A stretch of DNA of 64,000 nt, taken from positions 80,051,647 to 80,115,646 of the forward strand of contig CM067366.1 of assembly GCA_034401795.1 (NCBI GenBank). The letters run 5' to 3'. A model generated the notes under the pieces. The model was not told the DNA's origin. It searched no databases and saw nothing but the letters and a program-made list of their open reading frames with translations. Below, piece after piece: positions 4,266 to 53,000 of this stretch. Both the position numbers and the translations under genes were made by a program. This stretch comes from Chaetoderma sp. LZ-2023a (taxonomy: Eukaryota > Mollusca > Caudofoveata > Chaetodermatida > Chaetodermatidae). Each line of letters starts with the position of its first letter. Position 1 is the first letter of the stretch.

Positions 4266-4558
4266 GCTGCCTATGCATAAATTAAAAATAAACTTGACAA
4301 AATTTCACAGCCTCTGTCAATATTAAAACTTCGGTTGAAATCACCAATCTTGACACCACACAAAATTCACAGTACGATTTGATCGTGTGAATTGTCAACC
4401 ACGTGGCTTGACGTTACACCAAACGTTTTCAGTGTAAAAGATGGCACCTAATAAAGTTATGAAGCAGGACATACTTTCTCTTGCATCTTTCATATGACCG
4501 TGTTTGAATGATGTATAGTGGGTTGGTTATCAATCACCAGTAGAAAAATATTTACAAA

Positions 4559-4879
4559 ATGAGATTTCAATTACAGACAAGCAGAAGATGGAATCATGGC
4601 TCAGTACCTGATCAAAGATGCCTGGTATGCCTAGAAGAAGATGAGTCCATTGAACACTTTATGCCAAGTTGCTCTGTAAGCCAAACAGTCTGGCAATCTA
4701 TTCTGAAGCAGATACTGACTGAACTGCAGGATAATGTATGTAGTGACTCCGAATTACTGACAACCCTTCAAGGGGATGATAGCATGATGTGGCACTTTCT
4801 CTTTGACACAAGTCAAGCAGAACTACCTACAGACATCACCCATCAACTTGAACCGGATTGTACCAGACCAGAGATGTAA
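4559..4879 (+). pseudogene. LINE reverse-transcriptase C-terminal fragment
   Basis: A 106-residue open stretch containing 'RCLVCLEEDESIEHFMPSC', the CxxC...H...C knuckle at the C-terminus of many non-LTR retrotransposon ORF2 proteins. No RT or endonuclease domain remains upstream, so this is a 5'-truncated relic. Confidence 0.5.
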
Positions 4880-7027: not shown

Positions 7028-8130
7028 AACACCCAGCCGCTTAATTGAAATGAGTTTGACTGAAAGCCGACACCAAGCCGCTTAATTGAAATGAGTTTGA
7101 CTGAAAGCCGACACCCAGCCGCTTAATTAAAATGAGTTTGACTGAAAGCCGACACCAAGCCGCTTAATTGAAATGAGTGACTGAAAGCCGACACCCAGCC
7201 GCTTAATTGAAATGAGTTTGACTGAAAGCTGACACCCAGCCGCTTAATTGAAATGAGTTTGACTGAAAGCCGACACCCAGCCGCTTAATTGAAATGAGTT
7301 TGACTGAAAGCCGACACCCAGCCGCTTAATTGAAATGAGTTTGACTGAAAGCCGACACCCAGCCGCTTAATTGAAATGAGTTTGAAAGCTGACACCAAGC
7401 CGCTTAATTGAAATGAGTTTGACTGAAAGCTGACACCCACGCCACTTAATTGAAATGAGTTTGACTGAAAGCTGACACCCAGCCGCTTAATTGAAATGAG
7501 TTTGACTGAAAGCCGACACCCAGCCGCTTAATTGAAATGAGTTTGACTGAAAGCTGACACCCAGCCGCTTAATTGAAATGAGTTTGACTGAAAGCCGACA
7601 CCCAGCCGCTTAATTGAAATGAGTTTGACTGAAAGCTGACACCAAGCCGCTTAATTGAAATGAGTTTGACTGAAAGCTGACACCCAGCCGCTTAATTGAA
7701 ATGAGTTTGACTGAAAGCCAACACCCAGCCGCTTAATTGAAATGAGTTTGACTGAAAGCCGACACCCAGCCGCTTAATTGAAATGAGTTTGACTGAAAGC
7801 TGATACCCAGCCTCTTAATTGAAATGAGTTTGACTGAAAGCCGACACCCAGCCGCTTAATTGAAATGAGTTTGACTGAAAGCTGACACCCAGCCTCTTAA
7901 TTGAAATGAGTTTGACTGAAAGCTGACACCCAGCCGCTTAATTGAAATGAGTTTGACTGAAAGCTGACATCCAGCCGCTTAATTGAAATGAGTTTGACTG
8001 AAAGCTGACACCCAGCCGCTTAATTGAAATGAGTTTGACTGAAAGCTGACACCCAGCCTCTTAATTGAAATGAGTTTGACTGAAAGCTGGCATCCAGCCT
8101 CTTAATTGAAATGAGTTTGACTGAAAGCTG
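7028..8130. repeat. 41-bp minisatellite (~27 copies)
   Basis: The unit is acacccagccgcttaattga followed by aatgagtttgactgaaagccg. Variants alternate gccgac/gctgac and cccagcc/caagcc. The half 'ttgaaatgagtttgactgaaagc' resembles one arm of the FB1 hairpin, so the array probably grew from a half-element. The flank 8131-8900 shows no gene or repeat. Confidence 0.95.
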
Positions 8131-10170: not shown

Positions 10171-10230
10171 TCAGTATCGCTGTTTCTTCATGATGTTTGG
10201 TCGCCAGTTGATGGGATGACTCTCTTCAGT
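10171..10230 (-). CDS. PLRG1: PLRG1 exon 15 (residues 498-516 and stop)
   Basis: Acceptor atttacag, then '[19 protein letters not shown]' and TGA (10171-10173). Human ends 'TEETHPVSWKPEIIKRKRF', so the terminus is full length and not truncated. Confidence 0.96.
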   Translation of the reverse strand, partial: TEESHPINWRPNIMKKQRY

Positions 10231-13200
10231 CTGTAAATAAAATTCAACAATAAGTTCATCATATGCATGAAAATTATAGATTTCTAAAATTAGTGTCCAC
10301 TATGACTTCCATATTTACAAGATTGTCGATCAGTTTGCATACGTTCTGTACACGGATACAAATTTTAAAATCAAGATGTCCTCGTTGTGCCACTTCACAA
10401 AGTTGTGTTTCAAGTTATCGCATGAAACCAATTGTCAAGATGGCCACATTGGATTGTGTATCAGGACCAATCTTAACACGACCCCAGTTGATAAACAAAG
10501 TTTTATATCAATCAGTTAACCCTTTACCAAATGCAATTTCAGGTCTATATTTGTTCTATATTTACTCAGGCCACAACAGTGTTATCTAAATGATAATCAC
10601 TTAGTATGTCAAAAAAAAGCTTACGATAAATGATACAGTGAACAAGCAATAGAACAGCTGCTAACACCTGTATACTTACAGCACTGTCGTCTTCCTTATA
10701 AATTTTAATTGTCTTGTCAGCTTCACATGTGATCAATCGGCTTCCACTTTGATCAAATGTACATGCAAATATCCCCGCCTCAGAGTCTATAGAGCCGGGT
10801 TGAGCAAGGGCTTGTATCCGCTGAAAGTTGTAGCCTGTCTTCCAGTCCCAAAAATGAAGTGTACCATTGTCAGCTGAAACGAGCAATAAATGAGAGATTA
10901 GGTTTTAACTCTTTAACCTTCAAATTTGTTCAAGAAAATTTTCTCATAGAAAATGCTTGTTTGCAGACAAAGAGAAAATTATTCTAGAAAATTTATCATT
11001 GCAATGACTTTCACGGTTATCAAGCCAGTCATTCCAATGGTAAATTTTCAAAAATAGTCTTCTCCCTCATATGCAAATGTACATTTCTCAAGATCACTGC
11101 AGAAATCATTTTGGGGGTTTAAAGGTGAAAGGAAAGGATCAGGGAATGAGGTGAGGCTGAGCTGCTTTCGCTATTTGTCAAGGCAAATATACACCTGTGC
11201 AAAAGTTAAGCACCAGCAAAAACAATAGAACGTAGAAACATGATGGTACAACTAGGCTGCCATACTTTTTGTCCCCGCGTTAGCTGACATAATTCCAAGT
11301 ACGAAATGCACATGCATGCATGACTTCACGCCGCTTGATGTCCGTGCGTGGCGGGAAACAGCACACGTGTTCAGTTATGTAAAAGTCCAGTTTGAGGTGT
11401 AGAACATTACATACAGATTTAGGCGACAAGATTAGGAATTTTGTGTTCATGACCGTGGTTTATTTGTACAGAGAGAATTAGCTCTTGATTGTGAACCGCT
11501 ATGGCAAGATGAAGGTTAAGTGATCGTGTGAAATGGCAAATCATAGGCATGCATACCACTGGTATGTCATGCAGAGAGATTGGCAGACAGCTGAACATTA
11601 ACCATACTGTAATCAGTCGTTTGATTGCAAAACATGGGCAAACTAACGAGGTGAAGGACAGGCCTAGATCTGGAAGACCGAAGAAGACTACTGCCCGTGA
11701 TGATCGAGCCCTAGTACGCCTTGTTAGGAGATCTCCATTCACCAACAGCAGAGTGCTCAGCCAGCAATGGGAAACGCGCAATAGAGTGTCAATGTCTACC
11801 GTCAAAAGGAGACTGTATGCTGCTGGCATGAAAGCTAGGAGACCTGTCAGACGTCCTCTCCTCACTGCACACCACAAAGAGGAGCGTCTGAGGTGGTGCA
11901 ACGAAAGAAGACACTGGAACATGAGATCCTGGAGACGGGTACACTGGTCCGATGAAAGTCGGTTCCTGCTTCATGCCACAGATGGTCGAACTCGTGTATG
12001 GAGGTCCAGACGCACGGCATACGACCAACGTAACATCATGGAAGAAGTTCCATTTGGTGGAGGTTCCGTTATGATATGGGGGTGCATCTCATTTGATTGT
12101 AAGCTGGATCTGTTGACTGTACCTGGAACACTAAATGGACAAAGATATCAAGATTCCATACTGGATAGAGTTGTGGTCCCTCATTTTGTAAATCATGCAC
12201 CTGGAACCCACCTTATATTCATAGATGACAACGCCCGACCACATCGTGCTAGAGCTGTGCATGAATACCTCCACCAGAATGCCATCGAAACCCTACCATG
12301 GCCAGCAAGGAGCCCTGACATGAACCCTATTGAGCATATCTGGGACATTCTGGGAAACATGGTGAGAAGGAGGGATCCTCCTGTGCAGAACCTACAGGAA
12401 TTAACAGACGCACTCCATCTTGAATGGCAACGAATACCACAATGGCGTATCAGTCGGTTGGTGACCAGCATGAGACGTCGTGTCGTGCACAAGGTGGATA
12501 TACCCGGTATTAATAATGACAGTCTCAAACTCGTGCACAGATGTTAAACTTCGTTTTCAGACACCATTAATGACAAGCTAGCCACGTGTGTCAACTGTAG
12601 GGCAATAGTTGTCAGTTGTGTCAACGTAACCATATTCAGGCCTCGTTTTCAAGTTCAAACAAAAATATACAGTGTTTCCCCACCATCATAATCAGCATTC
12701 CTCTAGTTGCATTATTACCTCTTGCACTAAGATGGATGGGTACATAAATGTTTATGCTATTGCTTTCTTCATAGCACATGAATATACCCTCGCATGTGCG
12801 TAAAAATAGGGTGGTGCTTAACTTTTGCACAGGTGTATATAAGACGAATCTGACTGTGATTGGGAATTGACTCGGTACCTGGGGCTATGGTATTCCCGGA
12901 CACAGTATGGGCAGGACCAGGAGAGTGTGGAGTTTTAATTGTTTATTTTGAGCTAGACTAGATAATAGACATTATCATAATAGTACATCTGGTAAGTATT
13001 ATTCGAAGTAGAAACTGTAACACCGTCATCCACACTCTGAGCCATACATACCTGCAGACACCATAACACTGTCATCCACACTCTGAACCATACATACCTG
13101 CAGACACTATAACACTGTCATCCACACTATGAGCCATACATACCTGCAGACACCATAACACTGTCATCCACACTCTGAACCATACATACCTGCAGACACC

Positions 13201-16200
13201 ATAACACTGTCATCCACACTATGAGCCATACATACCTGCAGACACCATAACACCGTCATCCACACTCTCAGCCATGCATACCTGCAGACACCATAACACT
13301 TTCATCCACACTCTGAACCATACATACCTGCAGACACCATAACACTGTCATCCACACTCTGAACCATACATACCTGCAGACACCATAACACTGTCATCCA
13401 CACTATGAGCCATACATACCTGCAGACACCATAACACTGTCATCCACACTCTGAACCATACATACCTGCAGACACCATAACACTGTCATCCACACTCTGA
13501 ACCATACATACCTGCAGACACCATAACACTGTCATCCACACTCTGAACCATACATACCTGCAGACACCATAACACTGTAATCCACATTGAGCCATACATA
13601 CCTGCAGACACCATAACACTGTCATCCACACTATGAGCCTTACATACCTGCAGACACCATAACACTGTCATCCACACTCTGAACCATACATACCTGCAGA
13701 CACCATAACACTGTAATCCACATTGAGCCATACATACCTGCAGATACCATAACACCGTCATCCACACTCTCAGCCATACATACCTGCAGACACCATAACA
13801 CTGTCATCCACACTATGAGCCATACATACCTGCAGACACCATAACACTGTCATCCACACTATGAGCCATACATACCTGCAGACACCATAACACTGTCATC
13901 CACACTATGAGCCATACATACCTGCAGACACCATAACACTGTCATCCATACTCTGAACCATACATACCTGCAGACACCATAACACTGTCATCCACACTCT
14001 GACCCATACATACCTGCAAACACCATAACACCGTCATCCACACTCTCAGCCATACATACCTGCATACACCATAACACTGTCATCCACACTCTGAACCATA
14101 CATACCTGCAGACACCATAACACTGTCATCCACACTCTGAACCATACATACCTGCAGACACCATAACACTGTCATCCACACTCTGAACCATACATACCTG
14201 CAGACACCATAACACTGTCATCCACACTCTGACCAATACATATCTGCAAACACCATAACACTGTCATCCACACTCTCAGCCATACATACCTGCATACACC
14301 ATAACACTGTCATCCACACTCTGAACCATACATACCTGCAGACACCATAACACTGTCATCCACACTCTGAACCATACATACCTGCAGACACCATAACACT
14401 GTCATCCACACTCTGAACCATACATACCTGCAGACACCATAACACTGTCATCCACACTCTCAGCCATACATACCTGCATACACCATAACACTGTCATCCA
14501 CACTCTGAACCATACATACCTGCAGACACCATAACACTGTAATCCACATTGAGCCATACATACCTGCAGATACCATAACACCGTCATCCACACTCTCAGC
14601 CATACATACCTGCAGACACCATAACACTGTCATCCACACTATGAGCCATACATACCTGCAGACACCATAACACTGTCATCCACACTATGAGCCATACATA
14701 CCTGCAGACACCATAACACTGTCATCCACACTATGAGCCATACATACCTGCAGACACCATAACACTGTCATCCATACTCTGAACCATACATACCTGCAGA
14801 CACCATAACACTGTCATCCACACTCTGACCCATACATACCTGCAAACACCATAACACTGTCATCCACACTCTCAGCCATACATACCTGCATACACCATAA
14901 CACTGTCATCCACACTCTGAACCATACATACCTGCAGACACCATAACACTGTCATCCACACTCTGAACCATACATACCTGCAGACACCATAACACTGTCA
15001 TCCACACTCTAAACCATACATACCTGCAGACACCATAACACTGTCATCCACACTCTGACCCATACATACCTGCAAACACCATAACACTGTCATCCACACT
15101 CTCAGCCATACATACCTGCATACACCATAACACTGTCATCCACACTCTGAACCATACATACCTGCAGACACCATAACACTGTCATCCACACTCTGAACCA
15201 TACATACCTGCAGACACCATAACACTGTCATCCACACTCTGAACCATACATACCTGCAGACACCATAACACTGTCATCCACACTCTCAGCCATACATACC
15301 TGCATACACCATAACACTGTCATCCACACTCTGAACCATACATACCTGCAGACACCATAACACTGTCATCCACACTCTGACCCATACATACCTGCAAACA
15401 CCATAACACTGTCATCCACACTCTCAGCCATACATACCTGCATACACCATAACACTGTCATCCACACTCTGAACCATACATACCTGCAGACACCATAACA
15501 CTGTCATCCACACTCTGAACCATACATACCTGCAGACACCATAACACTGTCATCCACACTCTAAACCATACATACCTGCAGACACCATAACACTGTCATC
15601 CACACTCTGACCCATACATACCTGCAAACACCATAACACTGTCATCCACACTCTCAGCCATACATACCTGCAGACACCATAACACTGTCATCCATACTCT
15701 GAACCATACATACCTGCAGACACCATAACACTGTCATCCACACTCTGACCCATACATACCTGCAAACACCATAACACTGTCATCCACACTCTCAGCCATA
15801 CATACCTGCATACACCATAACACTGTCATCCACACTCTGAACCATACATACCTGCAGACACCATAACACTGTCATCCACACTCTGAACCATACATACCTG
15901 CAGACACCATAACACTGTCATCCACACTCTAAACCATACATACCTGCAGACACCATAACACTGTCATCCACACTCTGACCCATACATACCTGCAAACACC
16001 ATAACACTGTCATCCACACTCTCAGCCATACATACCTGCATACACCATAACACTGTCATCCACACTCTGAACCATACATACCTGCAGACACCATAACACT
16101 GTCATCCACACTCTGAACCATACATACCTGCAGACACCATAACACTGTCATCCACACTCTGAACCATACATACCTGCAGACACCATAACACTGTCATCCA

Positions 16201-19200
16201 CACTCTCAGCCATACATACCTGCATACACCATAACACTGTCATCCACACTCTGAACCATACATACCTGCAGACACCATAACACTGTCATCCACACTCTGA
16301 ACCATACATACCTGCAGACACCATAACACTGTCATCCACACTCTGAACCATACATACCTGCAGACACCATAACACTGTCATCCACACTCTGAACCATACA
16401 TACCTGCAGACACCATAACACTGTAATCCACATTGAGCCATACATACCTGCAGATACCATAACACCGTCATCCACACTCTCAGCCATACATACCTGCAGA
16501 CACCATAACACTGTCATCCACACTATGAGCCATACATACCTGCAGACACCATAACACTGTCATCCACACTATGAGCCATACATACCTGCAGACACCATAA
16601 CACTTGTATCCACACTCTGACCCATACATACCTGCAAACACCATAACACTGTCATCCATACTCTGAACCAGACATACCTGCAGACACCATAACACTGTCA
16701 TCCACACTCTGACCCATACATACCTGCAAACACCATAACACTGTCATCCACACTCTCAGCCATACATACCTGCATACACCATAACACTGTCATCCACACT
16801 CTGAACCATACATACCTGCAGACACCATAACACTGTCATCCACACTCTGACCCATACATACCTGCAAACACCATAACACTGTCATCCACACTCTCAGCCA
16901 TACATACCTGCATACACCATAACACTGTCATCCACACTCTGAACCATACATACCTGCAGACACCATAACACTGTCATCCACACTCTGAACCATACATACC
17001 TGCAGACACCATAACACTGTCATCCACACTCTAAACCATACATACCTGCAGACACCATAACACTGTCATCCACACTCTGACCCATACATACCTGCAAACA
17101 CCATAACACTGTCATCCACACTCTCAGCCATACATACCTGCAGACACCATAACACTGTCATCCATACTCTGAACCATACATACCTGCAGACACCATAACA
17201 CTGTCATCCACACTCTGACCCATACATACCTGCAAACACCATAACACTGTCATCCACACTCTCAGCCATACATACCTGCATACACCATAACACTGTCATC
17301 CACACTCTGAACCATACATACCTGCAGACACCATAACACTGTCATCCACACTCTGAACCATACATACCTGCAGACACCATAACACTGTCATCCACACTCT
17401 AAACCATACATACCTGCAGACACCATAACACTGTCATCCACACTCTGACCCATACATACCTGCAAACACCATAACACTGTCATCCACACTCTCAGCCATA
17501 CATACCTGCATACACCATAACACTGTCATCCACACTCTGAACCATACATACCTGCAGACACCATAACACTGTCATCCACACTCTGAACCATACATACCTG
17601 CAGACACCATAACACTGTCATCCACACTCTGAACCATACATACCTGCAGACACCATAACACTGTCATCCACACTCTCAGCCATACATACCTGCATACACC
17701 ATAACACTGTCATCCACACTCTGAACCATACATACCTGCAGACACCATAACACTGTCATCCACACTCTGAACCATACATACCTGCAGACACCATAACACT
17801 GTCATCCACACTCTGAACCATACATACCTGCAGACACCATAACACTGTCATCCACACTCTGAACCATACATACCTGCAGACACCATAACACTGTAATCCA
17901 CATTGAGCCATACATACCTGCAGATACCATAACACCGTCATCCACACTCTCAGCCATACATACCTGCAGACACCATAACACTGTCATCCACACTATGAGC
18001 CATACATACCTGCAGACACCATAACACTGTCATCCACACTATGAGCCATACATACCTGCAGACACCATAACACTTGTATCCACACTCTGACCCATACATA
18101 CCTGCAAACACCATAACACTGTCATCCATACTCTGAACCAGACATACCTGCAGACACCATAACACTGTCATCCACACTCTGACCCATACATACCTGCAAA
18201 CACCATAACACTGTCATCCACACTCTCAGCCATACATACCTGCATACACCATAACACTGTCATCCACACTCTCAGCCATACATACCTGCATACACCATAA
18301 CACTGTCATCCACACTCTGAACCATACATACCTGCAGACACCATAACACTGTCATCCACACTCTGAACCATACATACCTGCAGACACCATAACACTGTCA
18401 TCCACACTCTGAACCATACATACCTGCAGACACCATAACACTGTCATCCACACTCTCAGCCATACATACCTGCATACACCATAACACTGTCATCCACACT
18501 CTGAACCATACATACCTGCAGACACCATAACACTGTCATCCACACTCTGAACCATACATACCTGCAGACACCATAACACTGTCATCCACACTCTGAACCA
18601 TACATACCTGCAGACACCATAACACTGTCATCCACACTCTGAACCATACATACCTGCAGACACCATAACACTGTAATCCACATTGAGCCATACATACCTG
18701 CAGATACCATAACACCGTCATCCACACTCTCAGCCATACATACCTGCAGACACCATAACACTGTCATCCACACTATGAGCCATACATACCTGCAGACACC
18801 ATAACACTGTCATCCACACTATGAGCCATACATACCTGCAGACACCATAACACTGTCATCCACACTCTGAACCATACATACCTGCAGACACCATAACACT
18901 TGTATCCACACTCTGACCCATACATACCTGCAAACACCATAACACTGTCATCCACACTCTGAACCATACATACTTGCAGACACCATAACACTGTCATCCA
19001 CACTCTCAGCCATACATACCTGCATACACCATAACACTGTCATCCACACTCTGAGCCATACATACCTGCATACACCATAACACTGTCATCCACACTCTGA
19101 ACCATACATACCTGCAGACACCATAACACTGTCATCCACACTCTGAACCATACATACCTGCAGACACCATAACACTGTCATCCACACTCTGAGCCATACA

Positions 19201-22200
19201 TACCTGCAGACACCATAACACTGTAATCCACATTGAGCCATACATACCTGCAGATACCATAACACCGTCATCCACACTCTCAGCCATACATACCTGCAGA
19301 CACCATAACACTGTCATCCACACTATGAGCCATACATACCTGCAGACACCATAACACTGTCATCCACACTATGAGCCATACATACCTGCAGACACCATAA
19401 CACTGTCATCCACACTCTCAGCCATACATACCTGCATACACCATAACACTGTCATCCACACTCTGACCCATACATACCTGCAGACACCATAACACTGTCA
19501 TCCACACTCTGAACCATACATACCTACAGACACCATAACACTGTCATCCACACTCTCAGCCATACATACCTGCATACACCATAACACTGTCATCCACACT
19601 CTGAACCATACATACCTGCAGACACCATAACACTGTCATCCACACTCTGAACCATACATACCTGCAGACACCATAACACTGTCATCCACACTCTGAACCA
19701 TACATACCTGCAGACACCATAACACTGTCATCCACACTCCGAACCATACATACCTGCAGACACCATAACACTGTAATCCACATTGAGCCATACATACCTG
19801 CAGACACCATAACACTGTCATCCACACTCTGAACCATACATACCTGCAGACACCATAACACTGTCATCCACACTCTGAACCATACATACCTGCAGACACC
19901 ATAACACTGTAATCCACATTGAGCCATACATACCTGCAGACACCATAACACTGTCATCCACACTATGAGCCATACATACCTGCAGACACCATAACACTGT
20001 CATCCACACTATGAGCCATACATACCTGCAAACACCATAACACTGTCATCCACACTCTGAACCATACATACCTGCAGACACCATAACACTGTCATCCACA
20101 CTCTCAGCCATACATACCGGCAGACACCATAACACTGTCATTCACACTCTCAGCCATACATACCTGCATACACCATACCACTGTCATCCACACTCTGAGC
20201 CATACATACCTGCAGACACCATAACACTGTCATCCACACCATGAGCCATACATACCTGCAGACACCATAACACTGTCATCCACACTCTGACCCATACATA
20301 CCTGCAGATACCATAACACTGTCATCCACACTCTCAGCCATACATACCTGCAGACACCATAACACTGTCATCCACACTCTGACCCATACATACCTGCCGA
20401 TACCATAACACTGTCATCCACACTCTCAGCCATACATACCTGCAGACACCATAACACTGTCATCCACACTATGAGCTATACATACCTGCAGACACCATAA
20501 CACTGTCATCCACACTCTGACCCATACATACCTGCAGATACCATAACACTGTCATCCACACTCTCAGCCATACATACCTGCAGACACCATAACACTGTCA
20601 TCCACACTCTGAGCCATACATACCTGCAGACACCATAACACTGTCATCCACACTCTGACCCATACATACCTGCCGATACCATAACACTGTCATCCACACT
20701 CTCAGCCATATATACCTGGAGACACCATAACACTGTCATCCAAACTCTGACCCATACATACCTGCAGACACCATAACACTGTCATCCACACTCTGATCCA
20801 TACATACCTGCAGACACCATAACACTGTCATCCACACTCTGATCCATACATACCTGCAGATACCATAACACTGTCATCCACACTCTGATCCATACATACC
20901 TGCAGACACCATAACACTGTCATCCACACTCTGAGCCATACATACCTGCAGACACCATAACACTGTCATCCACACTCTGACCCATACATACCTGCAGACA
21001 CCATAACACTGTCATCCACACTATGAGCCGTACATACCTGCAGACACCATAACACTGTCAGAGTTCACAGCCATACTGTTGATAATAGCATTGTGCCCGG
21101 ACAGGTTCTGGATAAAATTGCCATCAGGAAACTTCCACATTTTGATATTGTCTGGAGAGCCAGAGGCGAATGTGAATCTGTGGGAATATTACATAATAAT
21201 AAACTAGAAGATATAATCAAATAATTCTCCCAGCCATGACAGTCATTATTGTAAGCTCTGTGGGAGAACTTAAGCTATCATGTGGGAATGAATATTCTTT
21301 TCCACCTTTAACCTTTGATCTCCAAAAATAGGTTCATCCTCTAGCCAAAGATGAGTAGTAGAGACACTATTATCAAAATCATTCAGGGATCCAACACATA
21401 AATGCTATTTATAGTAATGGCGATCTTAATCATATGACATAAAGCAATAAAAGACCAGCTTCCCTGACAATAATGCAAATTAAAATCAGATTTTTGATGA
21501 ATATAAATTTGTCAGGGGAGGTAACTCTGGCAAATATGGACATATCAAGTGAGGTCGTGTCCTCTGAGATATCTCCTCTATTCATGCACCAAATGTGAAC
21601 CGATTTCATACAGGCTTTCTAAACTTATGCTCTGGAAACCAGATTATTGACATGTTTTACTTTTTTATTTGTGACTCGCAACTGCCCTACACCGCCAGGA
21701 AACACCCTGTCACGTGACCACTGGACACCAACCATGCCCATATATGGTAAATCACGTGACTACATCCGGTCACCCCACCAAAACGTTTAAAAGGAGCAAA
21801 CAAACACAGCTCAGATCATTCAGACTTTTGGATCTGACATAGACAGACCAAGCATCAGGCATTTATTCAGTACTTAGATATAATATTATATATTACCATC
21901 ACTATTATAAGTCGGTCTCTGTCTCTCAAATTCAGCAACTTGTGTGCTTACGCTTGCTTCAGGAGAGGTAACTAGGCAAATATGGAGGCATTTTGCTGTA
22001 AGGCAATTCCAAGCAAGGTTTTGTCCCAAGCTATGCATGTATCAAATTTGAAGCGAATCCATACAGGATTTTTAATAGTTGTGCTCGAGAAATAAATCTG
22101 GATTCGTGGGTGGGCGGAGCCTAATTCTTGTCCCCTGTCGTTCTTCACAGACCCATGACAACCATACCCATTGTTTCTTTACCATATTCAAAGTGGAAGC

Positions 22201-25200: not shown

Positions 25201-28200
25201 GGGTGGAGCTTAGATAGAAATTGGCAGGGCATAGCTAAAGCTGGAAAGGACCATTATGTTGTGGAAACAATCAGCGTGATAAAATGGTGAATATTGTTAA
25301 ACAAATAGTGTTGTTATTTTACTGGTCAGTGTATTCTACTCACCCTCGCTGTACCATCTCGACCACAAGTGACCAGAACATCAATAGTAGGATGTAAATC
25401 AATGGAATATACTGCACTTAAATGACCATGGTAGTGACGAATTACCTGGCAAAAACAACAAACAGTCCAAATTAACCTTCCACTAACGAAAATTATTTCA
25501 ATTTTAAGGCAAAAATATAGGAATGCTGTTGGATATTTAAAAAAATTATTTTACTGGGAGCTGAATGCTGCCTTTGTCTTTCAGGCAAATTGATTTCAAC
25601 CGATTATGTCAACAGAATATTTCCACTCGCAAAGTAGTGTTATCTGGTCTTAAGCGCTGAAAATGTTAGTTCCTTTTATCCATTGGATTGGAAGGCATTG
25701 TTTCCTGAAGCGGCATTGTCTTCCTTCCAATCCAATTATATTCAAAATATTCAACAGAACATTTCTGACATAGTTTTCAAAAATTTCAAAACTAATGTTT
25801 CTGTTACTTGTTTTGGAAACATGTTACCATATTTATAAGCTGTACTCTGCATGGAAAAAGTCACCTGTGTATTCATACTAACCTTATTATACTCAAGATC
25901 CCAGCATTTCACTTCCTTGTCTTCTCCACATGAGAACAAATATGGCTGTCGTTTACTCACAGCCACGCCTCGCACAGAACTGATATGTCCTGTTAAAGAC
26001 AGCTTCAGCGTGCCAGTAGCCAAGTCCCAAATCTGAAATAATATGTAGTAGTGTTAACAGATGCTAACACATGCACACGCTTGTTGTGTTTGAGAAGCTA
26101 AAGTGGAAGCACACATTAGAAATTATATCTGGGCAAATAGGACCTGAAAACTAACCATTTAATAGTTATGATTGATCAGCATAATTACAAAATCTTTACA
26201 GCGTGAATGTCTATTTGTAAATTTAGCAAATATTTATTTTTATTCCAGTTCCATGTGGAGGAATTTAAGCTCAACACTTAAACACAACACTACTACATAT
26301 TATACTATCTCTATCAATTTCCAGAAAATTATACAGGTAAACTGTTAATTATTTTGAAACTAATTTGACTGACAGTCCAATTAGTTTCAAAATATTCAAC
26401 AGAATATGTATGAAATGGTCAAGACATACAATTCGTACATGTCGGACTATTAATCGTTTAAGACAGGCTATATCGAATCATTCATGATGCAATGATTATG
26501 ATTTCATCATACATGTACTTAGTTAATTATGACCTCATGTGAAGTCAGATAATCGATCGATAAACTTGGAAAGGTCCATTGATGCACACCATGTATTCTC
26601 GTCAAAGTCATGGTAGTGAAAATAGCACGAATCCATGACACTAACTATTTCAAACATTCAGACTTATATAGAGCTCTCGTCAAAGCTTCTGAACCATCTA
26701 CTTCCTGTTATAAATCTTTCATTCAAACCCATGTTAGACAAAGTAATCTTGAGATCTCTTCTTTGTTACGACCACATTCTCTTTATTTTCATCACCATGT
26801 CAATGAGGTCATGACATTAACCCACCACTAAGCTACAGATAAGCACCAATACACTGACCTTGACCATTCTGTCACCAGCACCAGTTACAAACCATTCATT
26901 TCCTGGTTCCACGGCGACTGATCGTACCCAGCCTAAATGACCACTTATCACCTGGGAAGTAAAGCAACATAATCATTTTTAAATTAAAAAAATTAATTTT
27001 AAAGTGGCACAAATTGATATTAATACTAGCTCAAACAAGTATTATGTAGAATTAATTCTCTCATGTCCTCACTAGTCGATAAATCTCAGATCAAAGTCAT
27101 TTAACCATTTAACGGTCAAATTTGGTCAAGAAAATTGAAATATCTGCTTATTGAATGTCCATTTACAGGGCAAGAGAATACAATTTATGAAAGTTTATCA
27201 CTGGATTTGCTGGCTCGGTTATTGAGCCAGCCTTTCAGGTGGTAGATTTTCATAAATTGTATTCTCTTGGCCTGTAAATGGACATTCCACAAGGTCATAA
27301 CAGAGGCCGGTTTTGGCCGGCATGACCATTAAATGGTTAATAAAAAGAATGTTATGTTTGATATAATGATCTCATACAGTACAAGATGCTAATGTTGGTT
27401 TTTGTATCAAGTTGAGCATGACCATTTTCTTTGACAGCGATTGCTAAATCAAAAGGATAATTCTTCTTCCAGAGGACAGTTATTATATGCATTTTCAGAT
27501 TATTGGGTCTGAGCTATGAAACGGTACAGGAGTTATTATCCGGAAACCAATTTTCAAGATGGCCGCTGGAGGCTGGTGGCCATCTTGGATTTCGGATCAT
27601 TCTCAAGCTCGATAGGTTTCTTCCCCAGACCTAGTCCAACGACCCTATGAAGTTTCAATGCGATCCGACAAACAGTAACAGAGTTATCATCCGGAAACCA
27701 GTTTTCAAGATGGCCACCGGTGGCTGGTGGTCATCTTGGATTTTGGATCATCGTCGATTTCGATAGGTTTCTTCCCAAGACCTAGTCCAACGACCCTATG
27801 AAGTTTCAATGTGATCCGACAAACAGTAACAGAGTTATCATCCGGAAACCATTCTGTTGCCCGCCCGCCCACCCACCTGGACGGACGGCGCCATTACATA
27901 ATAACATGCCAAATTTTTTGGCGGAGTATAAAAATCGGACAATGTGTACAGCTAAACTAAAAAATCTAACATTGCTTCCACCACCAAAACTACAACGTTC
28001 GGTGATACACATGCTTCAAAGACAAGACAAAAATTAAATTTAATCCTTTTAGTTTATGGCTATACTTCCATTGTATGAGATACTATTTTTTTTGGAAATA
28101 TACATAGTATAATACAAGTAAAGGCATAACAAAGTATTTAAAAAATCTTTCGGCAAAAGTATGCATAATGGATAAAAGGCATAAAATTTAGGGCCTTTCA

Positions 28201-35000: not shown

Positions 35001-38000
35001 CCCCACCTACAGGGCAAAATTGGTAGGTCTATTCCTGTAACATGAAAGATGATATAGCATTAGGTACTTACCTGGTGCATTCGGATAAGGATAGGTCCCT
35101 CTGATTGCGGCTGGATCTGGGTGTCCTACAACAAACAGTATTAACCACATAATTTTTGATTTAGTGAACCTATCTCAGCTTGGTGCATCCAGTTTGATAT
35201 GTGTCCATGATCTGTTCCAAGAGACTACTCTAAGATGTGCCGGGCCAATTCCCTTTACACATGGGGCAGGTGAAACCTAACAAGGACAAATTTGTCCATT
35301 ACCTGTGTCGCTACTATATTTTTCAGTCGGGCCACCGTAAGGTCAAAAGTGTCTATTTAGGAAACAATGCTGCTGAAAGCTGTTGCATTCTAGTTTTTGC
35401 ACGTAAAATTGGCATAACCCACAGACACGCATCAACCCAAATTCAGAAGATTGTTCCATTAGAGTTATTGAACAAGAGGCCCAAGGGCCTGTGGCGCTCA
35501 CCTGGACCATTAGCATTTGAACCATTTGCATTTAAAGACACGATGGAAATTTTTTGAAAAAATCCAAGATGGCCACCAAAAGAATTGACCAATCATAATT
35601 CTGTATATACATTCTGAAGCCTAGCCACCTAAGGTCCTTCCAGCTGAGAATGATTGAAATCTGCCAAGCAGTTAATGATGTGTAGGTTTTTAACTGATTT
35701 ATCAACTTTTGGAAATCCAAACTAGCCACCTAAAAACCGACCAATCAAAATTCTGCAAACTAGATCTGAAGCCTGCCACCATAGGGTCCTTCCATTCAAG
35801 TCTGGCTGAAATCGGCCAAGCAGTTAATGATGAGTAGCCTTTTAAGCGATATCTGGTAAATTTTCATAAAATTCAAGATTTCACAAAAAATTTACTAATC
35901 CAAAATCTGTATACAAGTTCTGAAACCTACACCCATATAAAGTCCTTCCAGCCAAACTAGGTTGAAATCCACCAAGAGGTTAATGAGGACTAACGCTTTG
36001 ACAATTTCAGGTAACTTTTTTACAAAATCTAAGTTTCACCCAAAAAATTATCATTCAAAATTCTGAATAGATATTCTAGAGCCTATCACCATATAATCCA
36101 TCTACCCAAATTTGGTTGAAATATGTCAAGTGGCTATGGAGGAGTAGCATTTTGACAATTTCCTGTAAATCTTTAACAAAATGTAAGATCTTCACCCAAA
36201 AAATTGATCAATCAAAATTCTGAATAGAAGCTCTAGACCCTATCACCATAGAACCCATCTAGTTAAATTTGGTTGAAATATGTCAAGCGGCTATGGAGGA
36301 GTAGCATTTTGACCATTTCCGGTAGATTTTTCATAAAATCTAGGATTTTCACCCAAAAAATTAATCAATCAAAATTCTGAATAGAAGTTAGAGAACCTAT
36401 CATCATAGAATCCATCTAGTCAAATTTGGTTGAAATAAGTCAAGCGGCTATGGAGGACTAGCATTTTGACCATCTAAGGTTTTCACCCAAAAAAATGGAC
36501 AAATCAAAATTCGGAGGGTGCCAGCATAGGATCCTCCCAGCCAAATTTGGTTGAAATCGGTCAACCCGTTAAGAAGAAGCGATTTGACGGACGGATGGAC
36601 GACGGACGGACAGATGTTGGCTGGCCGCCATGGCATAAACTCACTTGGCCTTTCAGGCCAGGTGAGCTAAAAATGCTTCAAAACCGTCAATTTAAAAAAA
36701 CAACGTTGCTGAAAGCTGTTGCGTTTTAGCCTTTGGCCACAAAACAGGCATGCGTGTTCGGGACCACATGTGGCAAGCTTCCACTCAAGTTTGGAGAAGA
36801 CTGCACCAGTAGAACTAGAACATTTAATTAAGAACTAGAGAACATTTACTGAAGTAACTGTAAATCTGCGATGTCTGGCCATGAAGAAATAGTATAAGGT
36901 CACTTCTAAGGCCACTGAACATGTCTGATGATGATCTAATGCAAACTCAATGTGTAGTCACAGCGCAAAGATCCATTCTGGAAATGCCCATAGGTTTATA
37001 CTAAAAGGTCCCGTTGACTCTAAGGATGAAATAAAGTGTGTCTTCTAACATGATCTTTGAAGTTGCATGATGAAAGGCAGGTACCTCATGTCAAACATGA
37101 AACTGAAAAGCTTTACCCATGAATGACCTTGACCCTGAGGGAGATATTAAAATTTCATTGGAATTTTTATTAGATCTCTCAATGTCTACAATCTGGCCAG
37201 GTTTGAAGAGAATCGGAAGAAAACTATAGGAGATACCCCTGTTCCAATATTGCTCCCATAGGTTTACTATGGGAATATGTGGCACCCAAAAACTGATTTT
37301 CTTGAAAACTGTTGGTCGGATCAACTTTAAATTTGATACCAAATCAAGTCGATATGGGATCCCCCAACAGACCTTGCGGGTTGGTCTGTAGTTTTATTAA
37401 CCACTATAAACATACTTACCATTCAATCACTACGTGCCAAATCAAACCATCTGCATTTAGCACCAGAAAAAGATTTTTATGCTTGCTTTCATGCCCCCAT
37501 ATGCCTATACCAACTCATCGCTCCCTCAACCAGGCTTCTGGTAGAGTATACTCTCACCATACAGCCTGCATTAGACTGGCACCAGTCTAATACTCACTCC
37601 TCTAAGACCTAGGTCAAAGTGCATGTGCGCGCATGCGCAGAGGAGACTAAGAGTTACATAGAATCACTCTCCAAATTTAGATGCAAGAAAGAATAGAGAT
37701 TCTCAAATCATTCCCATGCGGGGTGGTCGAGGCTGGGTCGTAGCAATTGAACGGTAAGTATGTTTATAGTGGTTAATAAAACTACAGCCCAACTCACAAG
37801 GGGGGGGGGGGGGTGTCTGTTGTGGGTTGTTATTACACCACAAGCATCCATTACCGTTCAATCACTACTTGCTAAACCTGTAGAATTGGTCAGAGCCCCA
37901 CTTAATAACCCTTGGTGGGTGGAGATTTGAGAATCATAAAACAAGGATAAAAATTAAACAAATAATATCCAAATGTTAAATAATTATCATAATAGTGCAT

Positions 38001-41000
38001 CCATAACAAATCACACAGTGATTATCAAACAAGGACTCGTTAACTCAATGAAATAAACAAAACAAGAGAACATTCTCACCATTTCTGACAGACATACAGA
38101 CTAGCGATGTTGGAGAGATGTGCTTGGTAAATGGTCTTTGGCTTGTTTTGTTAAAATTGTTATATTTTAAAAAAGGAGGCCGCTGGGCTCTTATCCTTTA
38201 AATAGAAAGAGGTAAACGTCGATTCAAATTTCCAACCTGCAACTTACATGATGTCGTCCAATGACGAGCCGATGAAGAGCAAAGGAGGTAGCCATATCAC
38301 GAAAATTGTGCGCCTTGACATGGGCTAAATGGATCTCACCAGGGGAGGCAATCTCATAGCATACTTAAATGGTCTCACAGATCCATCTGGCAACCGAGGC
38401 CTTAGAAACTGGTCTAGCTACCTCCTCCGCGTTCGGGACCCAAAAGTGTGAAGAATCGGATCTTTTAAAATTGGTATGAGCTTTATAGACTTTTAAGGCC
38501 CTGACAGGACACCAGAACTTGTTGGACTGTGAAAATGATGATAAGGAATTAAGAATAATCGGCTTGGCTGGGTAACGGTTAGACTTAGTGTTTGATAAAA
38601 AAAAACCTCCCGGGATATAAAACTAAACCGTCCCCAGACTCGATAAATCTGTCTTTTTCTGCGAAAAGAGCATGAATTTTGGATCTTCTAGCTGAAGCGG
38701 CGGCGACAAGGAAAAACAGCCTTAAGAGTCAATAGTTTGAGACTAATAGATCCAATTGGGTCAAAATGGAGACCGGCTGATACTAGAAGAATCAAGGCCA
38801 AATTCCAAGAAGGCAAAGGCTTAGCCACTGGAGGACGAATATTGCCCAAACCTTCAGAATCTTCGAAATCCTTGATACCGGCATTAAAGAGACAAGGAAG
38901 GGAAGAAGCCATAGAAAATCTAAAACCCCTAACGGTGTTAGCTGATAGTTAAACAGAATCGAAAAGCTATGATAAAAATCTAACCCCTGGGAAATAGAAA
39001 AAGAATCGGGCAAGAAATCATGGTTTGAATACCATTCACCAAAGATTTTAAGATGACCCTTGTAAACTTGACATGTCGACTCCCTCATCCTAGAAGAGTC
39101 AAGGATTTCCTGAGATCTTGAAGAAAACTTGATCTCAGGGACCAGACACTCAATATTCTCCAAACGCACAGACTGAAGATTTCTGAATTTGGATGAAGAC
39201 ACGTGCCCCATACTTGAGAGAAGATCTGGGGACACCGGAAGAAGACGAGGAAAGTCTACCAGAATATCGAGAAAGTCTACGAACCAGATTCTCTTCGGCC
39301 AAAATCAAAATTCTGCATGTAGTTGTAGTTCACAAATCTGTGTGCTCAAGGGGTGCCTGCCCTTCTACCTGGGCCTGTGATCCAGGGGTGATACAAACAT
39401 GAGAGGATGTCACAGGGGAGCTTCTAATATGTCCATTGACCTTCTCTGATGAAGGAGTGTTCATTTCTGACAAAAAACGAAAACTGGTAATTTTGATGCC
39501 CAAGCAGTACCCTTCCACTTGGGCATCTGCCTTCCAGATGAATCAAGCCCTTCAGGACTCCAATGGTAACATCTTGACCAAGTATAGTAGTGACTTGATC
39601 AAAACTCTAGGCGTAGTCACAGTTCTAACCATATCCCCATTCATTCCCAATGGAGGAATATCCCATGTATTAGAGATCAAAGGTCACGGTCGGCGTCTAG
39701 GTGGCCAGCCATCTTCAGGATGCAAAGGGTAACATACTTACCAGGTATAATAGTGATCCGATCAGAACTCTAGGTGTAGTGGCCATTTAAAGATCAATGC
39801 TGTAAAAAACCCATACATTTCCCATTGGGATTTTTTGCCCACTCAAAGGTGGGCAGCTCAAAAACTATTGGATGGATCCAAAATAAAAGTAATAGCAATC
39901 CACGCCCCTATGGTCTCTAGAACCCGGCCAAGTTTGGAGATGCTATCTTGAAAACTGTAGGAGGAGATGCATCCTAAAAATCGTCTAAAGAATAACAAGA
40001 GCTCCGCAAACGGCGCATAATACCCCGCCATAATGACAAACTAATAAATGACAGCTATCAGAAAATATTTATTTCTTCCTCAGACCAGTAATCCTTATTA
40101 AGTGTCAAAGCGATCCGCTAAACGGTCAAGGAGGTATCGTCTGGAAACCAATTTTCAAGATGGCTGCCGCTGACTGGTGGCCATATTGGATTTCGGATTA
40201 TCGTAAATTTCGATAGGTTTCTTCATCAGACATATTCCAACGACCCTAGGAAGTGATCTGATAAATGGTAATGGAGATATCATACAGAAACCAACTTGGT
40301 GGCCATCTTGGATTTTGGATCAGTGTCGATTTCAATAAGTTTCGTCCTCAGACCTAGTCCAACCACTCTATGAAGTTTCAAAGCCATCCGATAAACAGTA
40401 ACGGAGTTATCATCCGGAAACCAATTTTGAAGATGGCCACCGGTGGCTGGCAGCCATCTTGGATTTCGGATCATTGTCACTCTAGATAGGTTTCTTCACC
40501 AGAGGTAGTCGAACCAACCGATGAAGTTTAAAAGCGATCCGATAAACGATAACAGAGTTATCATCTGGAAACCAATTTTCAAGATGGCCACCGGTGGCTG
40601 GCAGCCATCTTGGATTTTGGATCATGGTCGATTTCGATACGCTTCTTCCGCAGACCTAGTCCAACTACTCTATGAAGTTTCAAAGCGATGCGATAAACGG
40701 TAACAGAGTTATCACCCGGAAACCAATTTTCAAGCTGGCCACTGGTGGCCATCTTGGATTTCGGATCATTGTCAATTTCAATAGGTTTCTTCCCCAGACC
40801 TAGTCTAACCACTCCATGAAGTTTCAAAGCGATCCGATAAACGGTAACGGAGATATCATGTGGAAACCAATTTTCAAGATGGCCACCGGTGGCTGGCGGC
40901 CATCTTGGATTTTGGATGATTGTCGATTTCGATACGCTTCTTCCGCAGACCTAGTCCAACTACTCTATGACATTTCAAAGCGATGCAATAAACGGTAACA

Positions 41001-44000
41001 GAGTTATCACCCGGAAACCAATTTTCAAGATGGCCACCTGTGGTTGGCAGCCATCTTGGATTTTGGAGCATTGTCAATTTCAATAGGTTTCTTCCCCAGA
41101 CCTAGTCCAACCACTCCATGAAGTTTCAAAGCGATCCGATAAACGGTAACAGAGTTATCATCCGGAAACCAATTTTCAAGATGGACGCCGGTTGCTAGCG
41201 GCCATCTTGGATTTCGGATCATTGTTGATTTCGATAGGTTTCTTCCCCAGACCAAGTCAAACCACCCTGTGAGGTTTCAATGCGATCCGACAACCGGTAA
41301 CGGAGTTATCATCCGGAAACCAATTTTCAAGATGGCCACTGGTGGGTGGCGGCCATTTTGCATTTCGGATCATTGTCAATTTCGATAGGTTTCTTCCCCA
41401 GACGTAGTCTAACCACTCCATGAAGTTTCAAAGCGATCTGATAAACGTTAATGGAGTTATCATCCGGAAACCAATTTTCAAGATGGCCGCCTGTGGCTGG
41501 CGGGCATCTTGGATTTTGGATCATCGTCGATTTCGATAGGTTTCTTCCCAAGACCAAGTCCAACCACCCTATGAAGTTTCAATGTGATCCGACAAACGGT
41601 AACATGGTTATCATCCGAAAACCACTCTGCCGCCTGCACGCCCGACCGCCTGGACAGTGGCATTACATAATACCCCGCCAAATTTTTTGGCGGGCCATAA
41701 TAAAAATAAGAAAGATCCTGAGTAAAAATAATAATCTGCCAATCATTCCATTGCGGTAAGATTTCATTTAATAGCTTTCTATTAGGCTGCAAATGGACAT
41801 TTCTCAGGACCACTGGAGACTCCCATGTGTTGCTTGGCTTGACCAATAAACAGTTAACCCGTTTGACTCTGCAAACCAGATTTTGTAAATCCTTTACTAT
41901 GAATATATGAAATATATTTTTGAAAATTTATCACAATTCCAGATAACCATTCTGGAATTGTGATAAATTTTCAAAAATTGCCTTCGCTGGCCTGCTAATG
42001 GACATTCACAAAGCAAAAATTATAATATTTTTGGACCAATGAATCTTGACCATTAACTCTTTAACCCTCGAATTTGTTGAAGAAAATGTCAATCTTTTTT
42101 TTTTATAGAAAAGGTCCATGTGCAGACCAAGAGAAGACTATTTTTGAAAATTTACCACTGGAATGACTGGCTCGATAACCGGTCTGCACATGGACATTTT
42201 CTAGAAGAAACTTGAAATTTCCTTAGTCTGCAAATGGACATTTCACAAGATCACTGCAGATGCCGTTTTTGGCTGATATGAATGCTAAAGAGTTAAAGGC
42301 AAAACATTGCATGGCGCTCACCATTCCATGAGCCAGCATCCTCATACATCCCAATAACAGCATCCCTGGCAGCTATCTGCTGCTGCTGCTGCTGTTTCTG
42401 CTTCTGCTCATGCTGAACAACATCCTTCACAAGACGATATTCATCATTCACCTTACATCGCTTCTTTAAATCATCGCTGAAAACATGCAAACAACAGATT
42501 CAGCTATATGTATGCATGGCTAAATAGAGGACATATATACCAGCAATTGGCAAAACCTTTTGAGAAACAGGGTCAGAGTAATAATTATCTTCTAAATACA
42601 CACACATCTGTTTAGCCCTTGGTACCAAGACTAAACACTGAGGTCAGAAACCCATTTAATATGTTGTTATTTGTAGCACTGCATTACAGTAGGCTTGTAC
42701 GATTATGAATTTCTTATAATTGCGATAATTTTAATAAATAATCATGATTATTTGATTAATCATAGATGTCCATTTGGTGGGCGGGGGTGGTGGTGGTGGT
42801 TGGGGGTGGCGTGGGTTGGTTAGGCATAAAGTTTTCAAAACCCCTATATTCAGAATATCTGAAAGGAACTAAAACTTTACTTCAAACAGGAATTGTTAAC
42901 ATAACGCTAATAGAACGAAAACCACGACAAACGCTTCCAGTCTAATTGCCAGATAATAATAGACATTCAGAAATCACAATTAAATGCTATTAAGAACATT
43001 AGAGCATGATTTCTGAACACAATATCGATACAATCTGGTGAGACCTGAATGGCCCAAGAGAAAGGAAAATTCATGAGGGGTGGCGCAGATTTTAAGAATT
43101 GTGGCGCAGTGGATTCCTAAAGTGACATATTTCTCTAACTGGTCTGTCTACATTTTGGTCAAAGATAGACGCTATTGAATAAAATAATTCCAACAAATCT
43201 GCATTGTGTGATATATTATACTTAACGAATATGATTAACAAAGGTGCTTAGTTTGAAAAATATTAATATTCCAGGCAAAATATTCTTGCTTCTGGGCAAA
43301 ATGGCACAGGGTTGAGTGCCCCAAAAAACTATTTTTGAAAAAACCCCAAGGGTAATAGCAACTTTCAGAATTCTGATTATTTTACATCATTTACAAGTCA
43401 CAAATTAAACAAGAGGCCCAAGGGCCTGTGGCGCTCACCTGGACCATTGGCATTCAAACCATTATAATTTAAATAGACATGATGGATGATTATGGGAAAA
43501 TCCAAGATGGCCACCAAAAAATTGTCCAAAAATTCTCGTTTAATATGTTGAAGCCTACCATCATAGGAGCGTTCCATCCAGGTTTTGTTGAAATCAGGCT
43601 TCTGATTGAAGGAGTACTGTTTTTAAATGGTTCTGGAACACTTTCAGAAAATCAGAAATTGCTGCCAAACAGGGTTCGTACACTTTTCTATGTGTGAAAT
43701 TCCATGACTTTTCCTGACCAAAATTAACAAATTCCATGACTTCCAGAGATTAATATCTAGTAGATTTGTGTTTAAGATGTAGCTACATAAATTAAGATCT
43801 ATGTTGTTCTGCAAATGTCTGAATATTGCGTCTTCCAACAACCAAGCCAAAGCCTTGTTTTAGTATGCTTTTTGCCATAATTGTTATTGTATAAGGGGTG
43901 ATGGCGGTAATTTATGCCAATATATTTCCTTTATTATTCATCATTACCATTTTCCATGACTTTTCCATGACCTACTATGAAAATTGCTGATTTTCCATGA

Positions 44001-50000: not shown

Positions 50001-53000
50001 ATTTTTAAGAGTACTGTAATCTTCTCTTGGTCTGCAAATGGACAATGAGAAAATTTCTATGAGAAAATTGAAACTGTCTTAAACAAATTTTATGGTTAGA
50101 GTGTTAAGGATCTGATGTTAATAGTCTATTTTTGGCTGTGTCAATAACAAGGAAACTGGTGTCCGTTTTCCAACAATTTGGTTGATGATGTTGGTGTCTA
50201 CGAAATTTACCGAAAAATGAACACAGATCAACTTTAATTTAATTTGAAATTTAAAATTCTGCCATCAGATTGGCAAGGGTTAACACTGATTTGTGGAAAT
50301 GCTGTGTGCAGATGGGTGTTCCCCGTGTTAGCTGCGGTATGCCGCCTACACTCATGGTTACACCCTGCTACATCTAGTATTTGTTTGCATGCTGACTTGT
50401 GAAGGCCGTGGTTTGTCTTATTGCTGTTGTTTTCATTTTCTGTGTTCATCGCTATCCGAGTCTCCTCCTCTATGCTAGTGTCTCTTCATGCAACCACAAA
50501 GTGTGGATGCGGAAGCAGAGATGTATCTACTAGTAATTGGAATTGCTACCGAGCATGTTCATGTCTATACACAGGCTACTCCTAGCTCAGCCAACTTTAT
50601 TTGCGGAATTGCAGTATGACTTTGTGATGGGCTGGTATAGGTATGGCCGGTTCAGTCAAATTCAGTTGTTCTTTCATTGAAGTAGATATCTAGTTTGTTC
50701 CACCACCTAACTAGAGATTGCATCTGTAGACCAGGTTGTGGATATTTATAAGCAGTAAGTTTATTTTAAGGTTTATTTTTACGCATGTTTTATTTCAGTG
50801 AATGGTTGCTAGTAGAGCTGTTCGGTATTGATATTTTACGTTCGGTACCGGTATCGGTATTTTGGGGCCCAATTACCTCAGTATTGGTATGGAGTTGATA
50901 CTATACTATACGCTGATAATATCTGTCACTGTAAGACAGTACAGTGTTACCATGGCTGGCTAGCCCGCTGGTGACGCATGAATGGGTTATATTTCGCTAC
51001 ATTACTTTACAATCATACTGAATCCGAAAACAACCGAATGTCACAAAAAATAAATCATTAATTGCAATTGGTGAACTAATGAATTCATATTAATTTTTAT
51101 GGCTATTATCATTTGAGCATGTTAGATTTCTTTGACATTATTACGAAAATCGTGATAGTTAAAAAACCCTTTTACCTTCATATCGCCAGAGAATCTCGCC
51201 ATCCACACACAAAATCAGTCGTTATTAAATCCATACTAATCCTTATTAAATCCCTCAGATTTCTAAAACATATTATGGCCTGCTTCATTATAAAACTTCT
51301 TAGAAATCTAATTCAATAATTGTGGACAATATACTGAGGGACATAACGAGAATTGCCCAAGGAAAGTTGATGGAATTCTCTTCTCTTTTGCGCAATTTGT
51401 GGCATCCACATTGGACATTATCATATTATAATTACTACCTAATGCGGCTCTCTTCTTGGCTGTTTTCTAACACACCTTCGATCCCGTAAAGTTGCGAAAA
51501 TATATCGTAGTTCAATAGCTGTGGACGTTCGTAAACACCTATTTTTGAGGATTTTAGCCTAGTTGTGCCAGGAGTTAATTTTAAAATAACCACATTTATT
51601 GTTTCATCATTCGATATGGAATGTTAATCAGGATTTATTGTGAAAATCACAATTTTTTTTCAACCGACCGGTGCTATTTCTGGCTCACCAGAATCTGCTG
51701 CGGTTGCTCCAAATCATTGGAGGATTATTCTTACTCAACAACAATAATGGTGCACTATTATTTGGACATGACAAATGCATAAAAGTTAATTTGATTATGT
51801 TTTTGTGAGCTGTACTCGGCATACTGTAATTGTGGTAACATTTTAAAATAAAGTTGAATATTTTGAGATTTGCGCAGCATCGACATAACGGTATCGAAAT
51901 TTCGGTAATTTGCTCGGTACAGTATTTCGGTAGTGTCCTGATACCGATACCGTAGGCTTGCACGATATTGTCCTAGGAGGTATCGTGGTGAGAAAATTGC
52001 GATATTTCGATATATCATGTAGCTTATTTTATGGCATGAATTCATGGGGTGAATTGGTCTCGGGTTGAGTTGGACTGCATGGTTTGGCTTATGTAGACAT
52101 GTCGGCTTCGCTGAGTTTTCATATCAGTTTTAACCGAATATGACTTCTAATTGGTAAATTTCAACAAAAACATTAAATACAGTCACCAAAATGCTTAAAG
52201 AACGGTCATTAATAACACGAAAATAGGAAATTTCCCGGTGTAAATCATTAACACCTTACACCTTGGCTTAATGTATACCTTGCCCACCATTTCGGGAGTG
52301 AAATTATTACATTGGACAACCCAAATATTGCGTACTCTGTTATAACCATCATATATTAGATCAAAATTAATCTAAAAATTTGACATTTCATATTGTGTTT
52401 GTGAAAATTTACAAATCACGTGATATTAGATCCATAGATATCTACGGTTTAGATCTGATCCGCATTTACCGAGTACCCGTTTACTAATAATAGTTAGCCT
52501 TCAGAAACATCTCGGATAGTTCACCTTGCAGGCTAAAGCGTGTACAGAGTCTCATTTAGCTATCACATTTGTGAACACACCACCTCTCGCCTCCAAAAGC
52601 AAGAGAGCGAACAATATCACATGATTTATATATTTTACTAATAATAGTTAACCTTCAGAAACATCTCGGATAGTTCACCTTGCAGGCTAAAGCGTGTATA
52701 CCGTCTCATTTAGCTATCACATTTGTGAACACACCACCTCTCACCTCCAAAAGCAAGAGAGCGAACAAAATCATGTGATTTATGTATTTTACTAATAATA
52801 GTTAACCATCAGAAACATCTCGGATAGTGCACCTTGCTGGCTAAAGCGTGTATATCATCTCATTTAGCTATCACATTTGTGAATGCACCACCTCTCACCT
52901 CCAAAAGCAAGAGAGCGAGCAAAATCATGTGATTTATGTATTTTACTAATAATAGTTAACCTTCAGAAACATCTCAGATAGTTCACCTTGCAGGCTAAAG

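Follow-up and report, generated by a model that had tools for sequence, protein, structure and literature searches.

When the end of an exon, together with its own 5' splice site, is repeated in tandem far into the following intron, which of the copies can serve as the donor, and what becomes of the others? This question is raised by a locus of the caudofoveate mollusc Chaetoderma sp. LZ-2023a, which lies in the 64,000 nt of DNA analysed here (the whole stretch is referred to as the window). According to the original prediction, about 175 copies of an exon end directly follow an exon of the gene PLRG1, and the spliceosome, meeting near-identical donors in a row, must use the first of them.

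The host gene and its array-bearing intron

With a chiton protein as the query in tblastn, most of PLRG1 was recovered in pieces on the minus strand, from 32733 to 10174; the first exons gave weak matches only. A 316-residue piece from the joined exons of the window matched best to the chiton Liolophura sinensis (86%), followed by Ruditapes (85%) and Haliotis (84%), i.e. molluscs throughout, among the best 120 of 3,681 matches. Related entries are named Pleiotropic regulator 1 and Pre-mRNA-splicing factor PRP46; these entries are spliceosomes. GT-AG solutions were obtained for seven other PLRG1 introns.

The exon next to the array (21038 to 21177, minus strand, 140 nt), called exon 13 in the original prediction, holds the third-last place among the coding exons aligned to P0001. 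It has the acceptor CCCACAG just upstream and ends in CTGCAG/GTATGT (exon/intron). Together with the next coding exon (10680 to 10873, minus strand; acceptor TCGTTTCAG/CTGACAATG, intron/exon) it aligned without gaps, over a length of 109 residues, to solved chains named Pleiotropic regulator 1 (PLRG1). The gene is PLRG1, as predicted, and the predicted coordinates of the exon were exact. The last coding exon is found at 10174 to 10230 on the same strand.

To define the intron, donors from 20901 to 21097 were combined with acceptors from 10840 to 10960. Among the GT-AG pairs tried, the donor at 21037 with the acceptor at 10873 was the sole one that gave an open PLRG1 frame of the right length, in which 97 of 112 residues agree with P0001. 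The intron set by this pair spans 10874 to 21037 on the minus strand (10,164 nt).

The same intron contains, downstream of the array, an open frame of 344 aa for a Tc1/mariner-like transposase (11513 to 12544, plus strand; Pfam DDE_3 and HTH_Tnp_Tc3_2), which is probably unrelated to the array. The window as a whole is rich in minisatellites. Two arrays with a period of about 151 bp (27530 to 27851 and 40297 to 41624) have consensus units that look alike by eye and are perhaps members of a dispersed repeat family; more tandem arrays are present at 7029 to 8130 (41 bp), 35742 to 36470 (157 bp) and 52480 to 53868 (154 bp). A zf-RVT (PF13966) match at 4544 to 4876 on the plus strand is a fragment, probably a retrotransposon remnant.

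Extent and composition of the array

Tandem Repeats Finder (TRF) returned a single tandem array at 13018 to 21060 (8,043 nt, minus strand) with a period of 46, 175.2 copies, 94% matches and a score of 14071. Cutting it into units from the exon onwards gave 175 units, 166 of 46 nt and nine of 44 nt, and an 11-nt remnant, after which the sequence is unique. The consensus unit, read on the minus strand and split at the exon/intron boundary, is TGACAGTGTTATGGTGTCTGCAG/GTATGTATGGTTCAGAGTGTGGA; 23 nt come from the end of the exon and 23 nt from the beginning of the intron. Unit 1 (21015 to 21060, minus strand) includes the genuine exon end and its donor, with the first intron base at 21037. Each unit thus spans an exon-intron boundary that is defined at 21037/21038 by the reading frame. 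In copy number, in the make-up of the unit and in its continuity with the exon, the array is as predicted.

The copies are well preserved. The exon end is matched identically over all 23 nt by 104 of the 175 units, and the exact donor CAGGTATGT is kept in 169, the remaining six being one base off each. CAGGTNNGT sites number 169 in the 8,043 nt of the array (21.0 per kb) compared with four in the 24,940 nt from 21061 to 46000 on the same strand (0.16 per kb). Elsewhere in the window, i.e. outside 13000 to 21100, the unit sequence was not found by blastn-short at E values up to 1. An independent satellite inserted by chance is unlikely, because the exon-derived half of the unit encodes PLRG1 residues that align ungapped and because the unit was not found in the rest of the window.

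The description as a row of near-identical donors was correct, but it overlooked the acceptor side, as each unit also ends in AG. When the array is read from donor to donor, 171 of 174 segments run GT...AG, so that an AG directly abuts the donor that follows it; the GT is lost at one of the 174 later unit boundaries. Since the units begin with GT and end in AG, the array offers a series of potential acceptor-donor sites rather than competing donors alone.

Only the first donor keeps the PLRG1 frame

Joining each of the 174 later unit boundaries to the acceptor at 10873 led in every case to a stop at residue 52 of the two-exon read, which lies inside unit 1. Only one of the 175 unit boundaries, that of unit 1, keeps the frame. 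Therefore PLRG1 needs the first donor, as had been proposed.

A stronger donor in unit 1 was rejected, as the predicted U1 pairing is -8.5 kcal/mol both there and in the 165 units with the most frequent sequence. An explanation of the choice of unit 1 by secondary structure was likewise unsupported: of 79 donors examined among the 175, that of unit 1 was average in predicted accessibility (rank 34), a 92-nt dimer of the unit folded no better than shuffled sequences (z 0.63), and no inverted repeats of at least 14 nt were reported for 13018 to 21178. Hence, within U1 pairing, accessibility and dimer structure, no local feature was found that distinguishes unit 1.

Variation and history inside the array

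The 175 units comprise 38 distinct types. With the 44-nt units excluded, divergence was highest in the 25 units closest to the exon, with 2.17 mismatches to the consensus versus 1.08 to 1.60 in the other bins. The strongest higher-order lag, among lags of up to 60 units, was 32 units. It corresponds to an exact repeat of 1,543 bp on the minus strand, the first copy of which (16730 to 18272) overlaps the second (15260 to 16802) at a spacing of 1,470 bp. This perfect repeat reflects either the recent duplication of a block or a duplication made in assembly; in the one haplotype seen, it hints at a recent change in the length of the array. Further runs of 12 to 13 units are common to different parts of the array. 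The divergence at the exon edge and the perfect block repeat fit minisatellite turnover.

The nine short units (25, 28, 40, 52, 69, 101, 142, 160 and 163, counted from the exon) have a 2-nt deletion in common, and six of them also share two further substitutions. These common changes therefore trace the spread of variants through the array.

In the exon-derived half, the distinct changes are spread equally over codon positions 1, 2 and 3 (5/5/5 at 8/7/8 sites). Counted by copies they are 16/46/13, with the excess due to one amplified site. Thus no coding constraint is seen, as is expected of non-coding copies.

All six donor-changing alleles are singletons, compared with 11 of 28 alleles elsewhere in the unit (hypergeometric probability 0.009). 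This value is post hoc, as the test was chosen after the counts had been seen; the allele counts exclude the nine units of 44 nt, and the units are related and not independent. The number of distinct alleles is about equal per site, with six in nine sites of the donor versus 12 in 20 sites and 16 in 17 sites in the other parts of the unit. Of the 46 circular 9-nt windows of the unit, just two, that of the donor and the adjacent one, contain at least four alleles that are all singletons. A simple and crude neutral simulation of 2,100 arrays, 720 of them eligible, reproduced the all-singleton donor alleles in two. The donor-variant units are numbers 8, 21, 34, 46, 149 and 170; three of these lie close to an end of the array, and singletons of every sort are frequent there. 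As a post hoc lead, this signal hints at a possible constraint on the donors, which would then not be passive. The undecayed donor copies (169 of 175 exact) together with the singleton-only changes hint in the same direction, against a purely passive array.

Interpretation of the array

Quite probably, the array is an intronic minisatellite of the kind called mirage, which arose by duplication of an exon-intron boundary, grew by unequal exchange and is tolerated because the donor of unit 1 is used. The seed would have been a 46-bp tandem duplication straddling the boundary with 23 nt on each side. Growth by unequal exchange or slippage would have followed, including the duplication of the 32-unit block, which would not yet have acquired differences. 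We infer that the spliceosome pairs the acceptor at 10873 with the donor of unit 1. This unit would be favoured because it is transcribed first and because its donor is nearest to the upstream acceptor of the 140-nt exon, which would allow exon definition; on general grounds, exon definition and transcription order are the likely reasons for the choice of a first donor. A transcript spliced from a later donor would include extra whole units and run into the stop in unit 1, and nonsense-mediated decay should therefore clear such errors. The other tandem arrays in the window count in favour of a minisatellite. Counting against it, no local feature was found that marks unit 1, and the mechanism that generates mirages is called unclear in PMC3087553.

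Another interpretation makes use of the acceptor side. The CTGCAG/GTATGT junctions could act as fused acceptor-donors through which the intron is excised in steps, each taking out one or more whole units; this is unlikely. Because the segments run GT...AG, excising complete units would recreate an identical donor. In such a ladder, to which we give the same small chance, each step would lead to the same final mRNA, and a further round could correct the use of a donor too far downstream. The ladder is supported by a branch-point-like TGAC motif in 161 of the 174 segments, the A of which lies 20 nt before the segment ends, and by the donor-changing alleles, which never spread. In Drosophila, recursive ratchet points likewise consist of a juxtaposed acceptor and donor, as described in PMC8605326. 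However, the GT...AG segments alone prove nothing, since this structure arises automatically when an AG/GT site is duplicated in tandem, and the acceptor looks weak: pyrimidines before the AG of the unit are low (9 of 17, counted by eye), just under the range of 0.59 to 0.88 of seven PLRG1 acceptors. A single segment of 46 nt would also be very short for an animal intron. That the ladder is functional and self-correcting, i.e. that selection keeps about 170 fused acceptor-donors in a spliceosome gene so that a 10-kb intron yields the same mRNA, is a very improbable extension of this reading.

Possibly, the copy number is partly false and a short real mirage was inflated in assembly. Both the perfect 1,543-bp repeat at 32-unit spacing and the shared runs of 12 to 13 units could be duplicated pieces. 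Yet the array contains 38 distinct unit types, and the longest shared run listed comprises 33 units; without it, well over 100 units are still left. We therefore regard an assembly artefact as very unlikely.

It is extremely improbable that the array is a regulatory sensor, in which competing donors tie PLRG1 mRNA to splicing activity (autoregulation) or in which the sites sequester U1 snRNP or distribute it along the intron: PLRG1 is a component of the spliceosome, wrong-donor products could be destroyed through the immediate stop at 174 of 174 later boundaries, relatives have names such as Pre-mRNA-splicing factor PRP46, and 169 full donors lie within 8 kb in which AATAAA and ATTAAA are absent on the gene's strand, but the predicted accessibility leaves unit 1 unremarkable and the dimer has no special structure.

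Relation to known systems

The suggestion in the original prediction that a donor expanded in this way, on an 8-kb scale, is without precedent was wrong or overstated, as human IFI6 and the mirages of amphioxus are precedents. The minisatellite of IFI6 (6-16, G1P3) reportedly consists of about 26 copies of a 12-bp unit. It offers multiple splice donors (PMC4526556; also cited in PMC3618361; original paper Turri 1995), two downstream repeat units being reported in PMC4526556 to be used as donors, which results in three mRNAs. The PLRG1 array resembles IFI6 (PMC4526556) in that tandem units supply donors beside an exon. Unlike those of IFI6, however, the later donors would break the protein; since all 174 later boundaries stop in unit 1, a protein-coding use of the IFI6 type is not expected.

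The mirages are minisatellites spanning exon-intron boundaries that were named in amphioxus Adh3, with further cases in the globins BflGb6 and BflGb9, troponin C and PGBD5 (PMC3087553 and PMC3902484). They were judged harmless to splicing, and RT-PCR by the authors suggests regular splicing, according to PMC3087553. As in the mirages, the PLRG1 minisatellite spans a boundary and duplicates the AG/GT signals (AG/GT at the ends of 171 of 174 segments, exact donors in 169 of 175 units). Units at the edge of mirage clusters escape homogenisation (PMC3087553 and PMC3902484), and the divergence at the exon edge of the PLRG1 array fits the behaviour described in PMC3087553. The differences are in size and in phylum. 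In the cephalochordates, the two BflGb6 haplotypes have six and three units of 150 to 160 bp and the units of Adh3 measure 10 to 72 bp, whereas the 46-bp units of this mollusc number about 175 and extend over 8 kb.

Two other systems share part of the structure. In the Rogers model of intron gain and in the potato RdRp case, tandem duplication of AGGT or of a boundary supplies the splice signals (PMC4974935), as the duplication across the boundary would do in PLRG1. Here, however, the copies sit within one existing intron. With the ratchet points of long introns in Drosophila (PMC8605326, as above) the PLRG1 sites have in common that the acceptor is fused directly to the donor; they differ in looking weak and in being tandem and 46 nt apart.

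A donor array of this size, or any in a mollusc, was not found in the titles and abstract openings listed by searches of an open-licence library. The kind of structure is thus already known, and it is its extent (about 175 units in 8 kb) and its taxon that did not turn up in these searches. The array in PLRG1 is real and striking without being categorically new, and it is most likely tolerated through the use of the first donor.

As an extreme case of a known oddity, the tandem repeat at an exon edge, it extends exon-boundary minisatellites from amphioxus to a mollusc and to a far larger scale. It is a natural experiment on 5' splice site choice, with about 170 locally identical donors in one intron of which only the first gives protein, and it allows one to ask whether tandem AG/GT copies are inert, recursively spliced or selected.
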